Assembly (NCBI GenBank): GCA_031264865.1
Contig: JAISDJ010000238.1
Span: forward strand, 1 to 42,757
DNA: 42,757 bases
Reading direction: 5' to 3'
Origin: Tannerellaceae bacterium
Lineage (GTDB): Bacteria > Bacteroidota > Bacteroidia > Bacteroidales > Tannerellaceae
Each line of letters starts with the position of its first letter. Positions within the stretch are counted from its first letter, which is position 1. This document shows, in pieces, positions 32,983 to 35,114 of this stretch. The notes beneath the pieces are model-generated. The model had not been told where the DNA came from. It saw only the letters and a list, made by a program, of their open reading frames with translations, and searched no databases. Made by a program: the position numbers and the translations under genes.

Positions 32983-33768
32983 ATGGAGACATCCCGTAAG
33001 AAGATATATTTCGCTTCCGACTCTCATTTGGGGGCTCGCTTCCACACAGATCCGCTAGCCGTTGAAAAGAAAATGGTACGTTGGCTCGACCATATCAAAG
33101 ATGATGCTTCGGCTGTATGGCTGTTAGGAGACGTCTTCGATTATTGGTACGAGTATAAATATGTCGTACCAAAAGGCTTTGTACGTCTCTTAGGCAAACT
33201 GGCCGAACTTTCCGACGCCGGGATTGAAATTCATATCTTCATCGGGAATCACGACATTTGGATGTTCGATTACCTACCAAAGGAAATTGGCGCCATTATC
33301 CACCGCGATGTAATAACGGTAGACCTACTGGGCAAACGTTTCTTCCTGGGGCATGGCGACGAAGTAGATTATCGCAGCAAAGGATTCCGCTTTCTCCGGG
33401 CATTCTTCCGCAACCGTTTTTGTCAATGGCTTTATGCCTCTATCCATCCCCGTTGGACATTCGGTTTTGCACTCGGCTGGTCGTTAAGCAGCCGTAAAGG
33501 CGGATTAAAAAAAGAAGCTGAACAGGAATATCAGGGAGAGGACTACGAATACCTCGCCGATTTCGCCAAAAAATACCTTAAAAGCCATCCTGATATCAAT
33601 TTCTTCATTTTCGGACACCGCCATATCATGCTCGACCTGATGCTCAGCCGCACCTGCAGGTTAATTATCGACGGCGACTTCATGACACATTTCTCATACG
33701 TGGAATGGGACGGAAACAATCTCTTTCTCAAACAATTTGAGGCGGAAGGTTATTCATTACTAAGATAA
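32983..33768 (+). CDS. lpxH: UDP-2,3-diacylglucosamine diphosphatase (lipid A synthesis)
   Basis: A calcineurin-like metallophosphatase that cleaves UDP-2,3-diacylglucosamine to lipid X at the inner face of the membrane. Its 261 residues carry the metal motifs in order: ASDSHLG (Asp13, His15), LLGDVFDYW (Asp50), FIGNHDIWMFDYL (Asn89, His90), FLGHGDE (His124) and FGHRHIM near residue 213. These identify the LpxH rather than the LpxI type. The ATG at 32983 follows the SufT-like stop by 13 bases; METSRKK before the first strand is a usual extension. Confidence 0.92.
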   Translation: METSRKKIYFASDSHLGARFHTDPLAVEKKMVRWLDHIKDDASAVWLLGDVFDYWYEYKYVVPKGFVRLLGKLAELSDAGIEIHIFIGNHDIWMFDYLPKEIGAIIHRDVITVDLLGKRFFLGHGDEVDYRSKGFRFLRAFFRNRFCQWLYASIHPRWTFGFALGWSLSSRKGGLKKEAEQEYQGEDYEYLADFAKKYLKSHPDINFFIFGHRHIMLDLMLSRTCRLIIDGDFMTHFSYVEWDGNNLFLKQFEAEGYSLLR

Positions 33769-33772
33769 TTTT

Positions 33773-33886
33773 GATTTTATCTCCTGATTCTTCGTATATT
33801 GACAGTGCCTTAATCCAATACTTAAGGGCGTCGGTGTACTTGTTTTGAATCGCGAAAACGACACCTATGTCGGCATACGACGGCAC
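33773..33886 (-). pseudogene. Remnant of a tetratricopeptide-repeat (TPR) protein
   Basis: The minus strand encodes one nearly full TPR unit: YADIGVVFAIQNKYTDALKY, then WIKALSIYEESGDKI. It matches the 34-residue TPR pattern with conserved Gly, Tyr, Ala and Pro-less second helix. No start codon, second repeat or long frame surrounds it, and it runs into the 3' end of lpxH on the other strand. It is a decayed fragment. Confidence 0.65.
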
Positions 33887-33904
33887 ATGGCCTGCGGATG
33901 ATAA

Positions 33905-34117
33905 TCATGCCACGCAGGTAGTGAAAGGCGGTCAATTTCGGAATTGAAATCGTGGCTGGCAAACCAATCAAACATTACTTTACCCGAAGGATTGAAAAGC
34001 CTTGGAGGAGATGCTTTCACACGAAGCGGACTGACAACTATAACCGTACCGGGGTCTGTAAGCGAATGGGGAGCCGGGGTATTCATGTATTGCGAATCTT
34101 TGAATAGTTTTATATAA
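33905..34117 (+). pseudogene. Remnant of a BspA-like leucine-rich-repeat (LRR_5) protein
   Basis: After an in-frame TAA at 33902, the + strand encodes a stretch with two LRR_5 repeats. They run NITLPEGLKSLGGDAFTRSG, then LTTITVPGSVSEWGAGVFMY and CESLNSFI before a stop. This is the ITIP-x-SVTSIGxxAF-type repeat of BspA surface proteins. There is no usable start codon or signal peptide. The minus-strand 73-residue reading frame here is its antisense. It is a gene relic of about 70 codons. Confidence 0.68.
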
Positions 34118-34148
34118 GAGCATTGATTGTTTAGTCAACTATATTTTG

Positions 34149-34236
34149 ACCGATCACCCAGGTGGCCGGCTCCGATCACCTAGGTGAACGAGCCCGATTA
34201 CACTTGTGATCGGATTCAGTCACCTGGGTGATCGGT
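34149..34236. repeat. Array of four dyad sites phased at exactly 22 bp, forming one large inverted repeat
   Basis: Four 12-base dyads with the pattern TCACCyrGGTGA occur at 34154-34165 (TCACCCAGGTGG), 34176-34187 (TCACCTAGGTGA, perfect palindrome), 34198-34209 (TTACACTTGTGA) and 34220-34231 (TCACCTGGGTGA). Their centres are 22 bases apart each time. The outermost 16 bases (ACCGATCACCCAGGTG) are exactly inverted at 34221-34236. TCCGATCAC (34171-34179) is inverted at 34206-34214 about the same centre, so the whole could fold as a long stem. It lies between the LRR remnant and dapB. Bases 34237-34334 hold nothing I recognise. Confidence 0.85.
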
Positions 34237-34334
34237 TAAAAATGATGAGAAAAAATACACGAAACTATCCATACAGAAACTTATTTGTCGTACACCCGAA
34301 ATTGAATATATAAGTGTTTACCGGAAAAAATAAT

Positions 34335-34342
34335 TACATTTG
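34335..34342 (+). promoter_or_regulatory. -7 box of the dapB-lepB operon
   Basis: TACATTTG is a full TAnnTTTG match, 55 bases before the dapB ATG. No clear TTG/TTTG lies 19-22 bases upstream. The dyad array ends about 100 bases upstream. Confidence 0.5.
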
Positions 34343-34397
34343 TAGCTTTAAATCCAATGGTTTGGAGAGTCGTTACTAATTAATAGCAAAAAAGGTT

Positions 34398-35114
34398 ATG
34401 AATATTGCACTTATCGGTTATGGGAAGATGGGGAAGGCTATCGAGCAGTTTGCTCTTAGCAGAGGACATAAGATAGTATCCATTATTGATATTACGAATC
34501 GGGATGATTTTGATTCGCCTGCATTTAGGAGTGCGGATGTAGCGATTGAGTTCACAACGCCTGATACAGCATTCGATAATTTCATGCGGTGTTTTGCCGC
34601 AAATGTACCGGTTGTATCGGGTACTACCGGATGGTTAAATCGTTTAGACGACATAAAGCGGATGTGTGAGGAAGAAGGGAAAACGTTTTTCTATGCTTCG
34701 AATTTCAGTATTGGGGCAAATATTCTCTTCGCACTGAATGAATATCTGGCAAAGATTATGAATAAGTTTTCGGCATACGACGTAAGTATCACGGAAACGC
34801 ATCATATTCATAAATTGGATGCACCCAGCGGAACGGCTATTACGTTGGCCGAAGGTATCCTTAATCATGTGGAACGTAAAAAACGTTGGACATTAGATAA
34901 AGAAGAACAACCCACAGACTTGCCTATCCATGCCATCAGAGAAGGAGAGATTCCGGGGATTCATGAAATTGATTACGAGTCGGACGTCGACTTTGTCAGT
35001 ATCAGGCATGATGCGAAAAGCCGGGCCGGTTTGGCCTTGGGAGCTGTTGTCGCCGCCGAATTTACTGCCGGAAAGAAAGGTTTTCTGGGAATGAATGATA
35101 TGCTTACATTTTAA
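34398..35114 (+). CDS. dapB: 4-hydroxy-tetrahydrodipicolinate reductase
   Basis: A step of the diaminopimelate/lysine pathway feeding peptidoglycan. Its 238 residues include the NAD(P) loop LIGYGKMGKAI (5-15), FTTPDTAFDN and VSGTTGW. The substrate-binding motif ETHHIHKLDAPSGTA lies at about 133-147, with His135/His136 and Lys139. It is the first gene of a compact operon with lepB, a lepB-like gene and a WbqC-family gene. Confidence 0.96.
   Translation: MNIALIGYGKMGKAIEQFALSRGHKIVSIIDITNRDDFDSPAFRSADVAIEFTTPDTAFDNFMRCFAANVPVVSGTTGWLNRLDDIKRMCEEEGKTFFYASNFSIGANILFALNEYLAKIMNKFSAYDVSITETHHIHKLDAPSGTAITLAEGILNHVERKKRWTLDKEEQPTDLPIHAIREGEIPGIHEIDYESDVDFVSIRHDAKSRAGLALGAVVAAEFTAGKKGFLGMNDMLTF

Follow-up and report, generated by a model that had tools for sequence, protein, structure and literature searches.

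Dispersed palindromes that are read by a DNA-binding protein are familiar from the ParB-parS system, and further repeats deserve comparison with the element described here, an array of four palindromic units (dyads) in a 42,757-nt stretch of DNA from a Tannerellaceae bacterium (contig JAISDJ010000238.1 of GenBank assembly GCA_031264865.1), which as a whole is referred to as the window. Repetitive extragenic palindromic (REP) sequences and REP doublets forming hairpins (REPINs), with their REP-associated tyrosine transposases (RAYTs), are described as dispersed intergenic palindromes that occur in several families per genome together with repeat-specific genes carrying an adjacent repeat (PMC3116915, PMC3733652). 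The miniature inverted-repeat transposable element (MITE) BrickBuilt of Porphyromonas gingivalis and P. gulae is reported to have IS5-like terminal repeats and a 23-nt unit that occurs 1 to 22.8 times (PMC4596501). A 77-bp inverted repeat in the capsule locus of P. gingivalis is located near the gene of the HU protein PG0121, and this HU protein is reported to bind the repeat in vitro (PMC3969353, PMC8757827). The data presented below make it probable that the window array represents one of the dispersed copies, here an orphan, of the predicted cognate binding site of an HU-HIG protein, a protein that combines an HU domain with a winged helix (Pfam PF18291).

The dyad array of the window

The array comprises four TCAC-N4-GTGA dyads within positions 34149-34236, the centre-to-centre steps being exactly 22, 22 and 22 bp. 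Its components are the following:

34149..34236, no strand: four-unit 22-bp dyad array, the outer 16 bases of which form an exact inverted pair
34154..34165, no strand: dyad 1, TCACCCAGGTGG, 7 of 8 at the TCAC/GTGA positions
34176..34187, no strand: dyad 2, TCACCTAGGTGA, 8 of 8 at the TCAC/GTGA positions
34198..34209, no strand: dyad 3, TTACACTTGTGA, 7 of 8 at the TCAC/GTGA positions
34220..34231, no strand: dyad 4, TCACCTGGGTGA, 8 of 8 at the TCAC/GTGA positions
34144..34179, plus strand: left-hand 36-nt arm of the inverted repeat that encloses the array, with 86% complementarity between the two arms
34206..34241, minus strand: right arm, pairing with the left arm, with 26 nt between the arms

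Altogether, 30 of 32 dyad positions agree with TCAC/GTGA, the top score in 200 dinucleotide shuffles of the window being 22, and alternative periods from 14 to 35 scored at most 21 in the real window (18 at period 23). The sequence thus bears out the first-pass annotation in its description of four dyads at exact 22-bp phase, and equally in placing two exact inverted pairs, one formed by the outermost 16 bases and the other, of 9 bp, at 34171-34179 / 34206-34214, around one centre. Lone TCACCNNGGTGA-like sites are ordinary in the window, with 12 matches at up to two mismatches versus 11.1 expected; the improbable feature is the four-fold phase and not the individual sites.

Arrays upstream of HU-HIG genes

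The window array belongs to a family of four-dyad arrays defined in this analysis, and two protein families recurred in the neighbourhood of its members. The array lies close by and at the 5' end of the gene in both cases: HU-HIG proteins were found near seven arrays in six genomes and vapE-like/DUF3874 proteins near five arrays in four genomes, the families being assigned with Pfam and the gene calls for neighbour families and for the gap types given below resulting from a simple longest-open reading frame procedure. At seven loci (L142, L262, L281, L297, L277, L304 and L286) the array is situated between divergently oriented HU-HIG and vapE-like genes, although the vapE match is weak in L286. 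The sole match on a viral contig (L222:977-1032) is likewise located just upstream of a vapE-like gene, and this contig may represent a mobile element and not a virus.

Nine genomes of array-bearing Bacteroidales contain 3 to 9 HU-HIG matches each. Among 76 distinct matches, 52 were tested first for upstream arrays, leaving outside 22 without a fetched locus (mostly weaker matches), L268 at a contig end and the partial L276; the final test covered 50 genes, after two weak partial G377 matches (L293 and L302, both array-negative in the 52-gene test) had been dropped. The control pool was randomly cut to 110 genes, of which 96 were left when those with less than 300 bp of upstream sequence or with the window array had been skipped. 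A 22-bp phased dyad array exceeding all 100 shuffles, which kept base composition only, was detected upstream of 42 of the 50 HU-HIG genes and of 1 of the 96 controls, at distances of 21 to 211 bp from the HU-HIG start codon. In Phocaeicola vulgatus ATCC 8482, for instance, the array precedes the HU-HIG gene at 2282440-2283042 by about 75-80 bp. Moreover, 22 was the best upstream period in 39 of 50 HU-HIG genes versus 0 of 96 control genes, which on sequence grounds strongly supports the earlier suggestion of a phased, presumably protein-binding array. With respect to origin, arrays were found at 21 of 23 genes from an order-wide sample not chosen for arrays and at 21 of 27 genes from array-chosen genomes. 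The dyads differ between HU-HIG genes and include GTYYGAC-N4-GTCRRAC, GCTGTCANNTGACAGC, TACCACTNNAGTGGTA, TTTACGACCNNGGTCGTAAA and others.

Correspondence between array dialects and winged helices

The window array agrees at 53 of 78 positions (E 1.6e-9) with the array that adjoins the HU-HIG gene of the C365:28.2 kb copy. In five genomes the spacers of HU-adjacent arrays resembled those of the remaining arrays in their own genome much more closely than spacers from different genomes, with areas under the curve of 0.994, 0.998, 1.0, 1.0 and 1.0 for 8, 12, 4, 1 and 1 own other arrays, respectively. A pattern of the TTYGAC dialect, derived from the HU-adjacent arrays of G014 and G136, matched in G014 (7), G136 (8) and G008 (10); it yielded nothing in the other nine of 12 genomes, and the control matched in none of the 12. 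Beyond the arrays at the genes, four further arrays of this dialect were present in G014 and five in G136, and six of these nine that were fetched (two from G014, four from G136) had no HU-HIG gene within 1.5 kb.

Comparison of arrays and proteins for 42 genes, repeated without six genes with a consensus that appeared poor by eye (L305, L290, L291, L264, L266 and L275), revealed that array distance tracks winged-helix distance and not HU-domain distance. A structural model of one HU-HIG protein, computed from four sequences (mean predicted local distance difference test score, pLDDT, 69.5), displays an HU fold and a C-terminal winged helix, with pLDDT values of 82-91 for residues 141-200. The top four positions of an uncorrected column scan were residues 169, 172 and 186, which the model places in the recognition helix and the wing, and residue 72 in the HU domain.

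Dispersal of the arrays

A sequence-only model built from nine copies was used to scan the 4.69-Mb draft genome and detected 18 full-length arrays, corresponding to 36 of 45 rows with both strands counted, whereas the remaining nine rows were weaker or partial, some of them at contig ends. The first-pass annotation had named a Bacteroidota intergenic repeat element as one possibility, to be checked by copy number, and these 18 copies along with those in other Bacteroidales establish a dispersed repeat of this kind. Contigs of the draft genome end inside arrays at G000 C346:5-65 and C301:6641-6678; the repetition of the arrays may break assemblies.

Three main dialects occur in this genome: CCGATCAC, to which the window array belongs, ATCGTATCAC and CCACCGCTCAC. 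Copies of dialect groups T and A are homologous to one another over a region that extends about 100 bp to the left and about 70 bp to the right of the array and then ends, indicating that units of about 240 bp were copied. The flanks in the window's dialect group have decayed to 54-55%, compared with 93% at the dyad positions and 36% at N4, the copies C301 (contig end), C108 and C97 (which fit no group) having been left out of this comparison. The window copy is part of an older dialect group, in which little beyond the dyads is still well conserved.

First codons of HU-HIG genes, mostly remnants, are located 56-58 bp from the array in 8 of the 18 arrays of this genome, while the same start motif was found at 5 of 119 arrays elsewhere (one of them spurious) and at 6 of 2169 random sites. 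Three copies (L069, L065 and L062, corresponding to G000 C337, C10 and C21) share an HU-HIG start that is cut short by a stop about 15 codons in (FYENSCFEG-like), which looks as though a form already truncated had been copied. At L070:5746-7098 (G000 C108) about 97 bp separate the array from a vapE-like gene, and in the flank of the array a short HU-HIG-like start, MSLRYDYHSPEV, is visible by eye; this copy is perhaps a decayed copy of the full module.

The nine-copy model also matched in 44 of 118 genomes of the family. A search of the genome collection with the exact four-dyad pattern, which required at least four dyads, returned at least 118 stretches; among the matches listed, 116 belong to Bacteroidales and two to a Treponema metagenome-assembled genome, judged by the names of the records. 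The 118 merged arrays listed contain four dyads in 95 cases, five in 15, six in seven and eight in one. Spacers vary from genome to genome and constitute genome-specific dialects, and the spacing is conserved; a freely varying spacing, which was earlier named as an argument against phased binding, is not what these arrays display.

The two Treponema sp. RUI307 contigs, which carry 22-bp arrays at L197:5482-5559 and L207:3559-3636 (GTCACGNNCGTGAC, with GTTTTGC-like spacers), have other genes that are not Bacteroidales-like by eye; these arrays may reflect transfer, convergence or CGTC-type REPs.

The abundance of the TCAC dialect was estimated with a three-dyad pattern at up to three mismatches, by which a four-dyad array counts twice, and with the reversed pattern as control. 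Forward matches (control matches in brackets) amounted to 40 in Phocaeicola vulgatus ATCC 8482 (1), 145 in Phocaeicola oris (0), 21 in Parabacteroides bouchesdurhonensis (0), 14 in Bacteroides ilei (0), 22 and 16 in two Prevotella species (0 and 0), 19 in G085 (0) and 1 in G002 (2). P. oris (G137), with its matches spread over 3 Mb, is the richest genome seen. Five of 395 genomes of a phylum sample matched, namely three of six from the order of the window and two of 389 others, each of the latter with a single match at two to three mismatches. In an order-wide sample of 247 genomes five matched as well, two of them richly (24 and 42 matches) and three with one match each, including G008 with one control match. 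Accordingly, the TCAC dialect is common in some families and was not found in most.

A predicted binding site of HU-HIG proteins

Neither a motif search within 220 bp nor a profile search of the window detected an HU-HIG gene or remnant beside the window copy, which is therefore termed an orphan. We infer from these sequence relationships that the arrays are bound by HU-HIG proteins, and feedback as well as any effect at orphan sites would be consequences of such binding. An HU-HIG dimer would read each dyad by means of its winged helices, with the half-sites flanking N4, and the 22-bp step, corresponding to two helical turns, would place four dimers on one face of the DNA, where the HU domains, by bending the array or wrapping it, could give rise to a compact complex. 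At an array beside its own gene this complex would exert feedback on the expression of HU-HIG and, where present, of the vapE-like gene, whereas at orphan sites such as that of the window it might provide a fixed architectural or transcription-blocking site between genes. The home site would be that upstream of the HU-HIG gene, from which copies may have spread round the chromosome, in this genome as discrete units of about 240 bp.

Several observations weigh against this interpretation. The 96 control genes were taken from the window and from dapB loci, and many are orthologs of the same few genes; of the six proteins from which the HU-HIG profile was seeded, five are array-adjacent. Eight of the 50 HU-HIG genes lack an array, including the best HU-HIG gene of G489, a genome with 34 TCAC matches, and in G377 the dispersed dialect is by eye unlike the array that precedes the single strong HU-HIG gene. 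An HU-HIG gene within 400 bp was present for only 7 of 156 array entries and lacking for the other 149. A strong HU-HIG match was present in 9 of the 247 genomes, with a TCAC-type match in only three of the nine, one of which has a single match along with a control match; this result fits only if the other six genomes use other dialects, and five of these six have a 22-bp array at at least one HU-HIG gene, while G128 has none. In the younger groups A and T the conservation of the dyads (87% and 83%) barely exceeds that of the nearest flanks (70-84% and 75-77%), and the apparent constraint on dyads is inflated because the copies were found with models that reward dyads. Finally, the HU-HIG gene beside the window-dialect copy is truncated (profile positions 1-83 of 125), and the correlation with the winged helix is modest.

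In a wider form, which we put forward tentatively, Bacteroidales would run parallel address systems in which each HU-HIG protein, some with a vapE-like partner, reads a private dialect of 4x22 bp as an autoregulated module, and scattered arrays shape the chromosome or silence insertion sites; dialects would diverge along with the winged helix, and paralogous systems would thereby stay insulated. The arrays hand each HU-HIG protein a predicted DNA address, and they would account for one class of the dispersed intergenic repeats of common gut species, for instance Phocaeicola vulgatus and Parabacteroides. If the predicted binding holds, the result would be a set of naturally insulated protein-DNA pairs, which could help to explain how the nucleoid is organised in these bacteria and could serve as orthogonal parts.

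Neighbourhood of the window copy

The surroundings of the window array comprise these features:

33935..34117, plus strand: remnant of a BspA-type leucine-rich-repeat gene (LRR_5, 34.7 bits), ending within the left flank of the element; context only
34099..34148, minus strand: left flank of the array, resembling the leader between array and HU-HIG start at the C365:28.2 kb copy; the start codon is not kept
34232..34257, plus strand: right flank, common to other copies by sequence comparison
34398..35114, plus strand: dapB, the next gene rightward; no array seen beside dapB in relatives

Across 34099-34246 the element matches the C365:28.2 kb copy at 72.7%. The gene debris left of the array also includes, by eye, a short tetratricopeptide repeat-like stretch on the minus strand (window positions 33770-33890) beside the leucine-rich-repeat remnant. 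To the right, the array is followed at about 160 bp by the gene that we take to be dapB, and then by lepB.

The dapB gene was found in 37 of 40 genomes including the own one, and 30 loci (the own and those of 29 relatives) were fetched and scanned with the array model and the 4x22 score. A TCAC-type array was detected in 1 of 30 loci, the own one; it was absent from the 29 relatives' loci scanned, of which L247 says nothing on the array, since it covers only 88 bp upstream of dapB. In 27 of 29 relatives lepB adjoins dapB, whereas the left-hand gene of the window is present at none of the 29 dapB loci, with up to 1.5 kb covered. The array is therefore located at a synteny break.

Alternative explanations

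The array could also be a MITE- or REPIN-like selfish repeat, a unit of about 240 bp moved in trans, with the HU-HIG and vapE-like genes marking the parent element and the orphan copies being idle. This explanation is compatible with binding by an HU-HIG protein, and we regard it, taken by itself, as possible but unlikely. The homology blocks of about 240 bp, some with 5' remnants of HU-HIG genes, are what it would predict, as is the position of the window copy at a synteny break by gene remnants and away from the dapB loci of relatives. Copies in P. oris share sequence beyond the array: the flanks of 20 arrays gave 250 matches with one another, of which 138 join opposite sides and hence reflect partly inverted repeats; on the other hand, 13 arrays of RUG12482 share a dialect without any flank match. 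The 118 arrays listed mostly avoid coding sequence, being located in tandem (43), convergent (27) and divergent (23) gaps, at locus edges (22) or overlapping an open reading frame (3), and the preference for convergent gaps (27 of 93 listed arrays versus 11.6% of the placeable length, p 4.5e-6) would also suit a selfish element. Among the 30 neighbour families listed as most recurrent, however, no transposase, and in particular no tyrosine transposase, was recognized by eye, no dedicated search having been run. An array at an apparently orthologous place in P. vulgatus (L161:5185-5262) and P. sartorii (L156:5790-5867) keeps TCAC/GTGA, with all differences in N4 and spacers, in a comparison made by eye and biased by the preselection of both arrays as perfect. 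This pattern, like the tracking of the winged helix by the dialect, counts against the selfish-repeat explanation.

A transcribed RNA element, with the long hairpin serving as a leader, as a terminator or as a substrate of RNase III, is very improbable. RNA folding, proposed earlier as a check, did give a very stable structure for the array (-64.2 kcal/mol, z -9.9), and by eye promoter motifs resembling the TAnnTTTG consensus point into some arrays. Pairing across the long hairpin was assessed for 119 arrays from 33 genomes, arrays at locus edges being left out: the outer 10-bp flanks pair at 0.636, but pairing at N4 (0.424) is at or below the values for within-array shuffles (0.434) and between arrays of one genome (0.494), and pairing between spacers 1 and 3 (0.559) slightly exceeds the first of these nulls (0.531) and falls short of the second (0.642). 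The arrays have the character of a palindromic 22-bp unit repeated in direct orientation, and the long hairpin or cruciform pointed out in the first-pass annotation is probably a by-product of abutting palindromes, because the variable N4 positions keep no pairing above shuffles. Moreover, no intrinsic terminator (hairpin plus T run) was found in 33700-34700, Rfam at the gathering threshold matched only a tRNA in the window and not the array, and arrays occur in divergent, tandem and convergent gaps.

The cooperative operator of a dapB-lepB operon envisaged earlier, to which the distance of the array from dapB would be suited, can hardly be upheld in view of the dapB loci scanned in relatives and of median distances of 202 bp to start codons and 125 bp to stop codons among the listed arrays across genomes, and a conserved role at dapB is unlikely.

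Comparison with known systems

On the features tested, the window array is neither a BrickBuilt element nor a REPIN nor the 77-bp repeat of P. gingivalis. REPIN/RAYT systems resemble the present one in their dispersed palindromic intergenic repeats and in a family-specific gene with a repeat beside it, but the partner here is an HU/winged-helix protein instead of a tyrosine transposase, the unit consists of four abutting 22-bp dyads, and neither a GTAG nor a CGTC tag can be read on either strand of 34140-34245. BrickBuilt likewise consists of short tandem repeats within an intergenic element that is dispersed in a Bacteroidales genome; the array unit differs in being 22 bp long, usually four-fold, palindromic and present in many genera. 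The 23-nt unit does not fit the window array (30 of 32 at period 22, 18 at period 23), and exact reading, at which mismatches were not searched, gave no occurrence of the IS5-like terminal repeat GAGACCTTTGCA in 34090-34300. The 77-bp repeat is similar as an inverted repeat near an HU-protein gene; as reported, it is confined to one locus, has 77-bp arms around a loop and a plain HU protein, and involves no dispersed 4x22 array, while the window repeat has arms of 36 nt with 26 nt between them and is flanked by dapB-lepB and gene remnants.

The array-adjacent proteins are members of the HU-HIG family (PF18291), for which the literature searched yielded no described target and the Pfam description line names no binding site; a protein-and-address system of the kind suggested here was likewise not found in the literature searched. 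The P. oris unit TGTTTCAC-N4-GTGAAACA resembles split parS half-sites, and compared with parS the arrays are distinguished by a 4-bp gap, tandem 22-bp units and differing dialects. The best reading of these comparisons is that the array would function both as a multi-dimer operator and as an architectural site, each served by an HU/winged-helix protein, and that its dispersal is REPIN-like.
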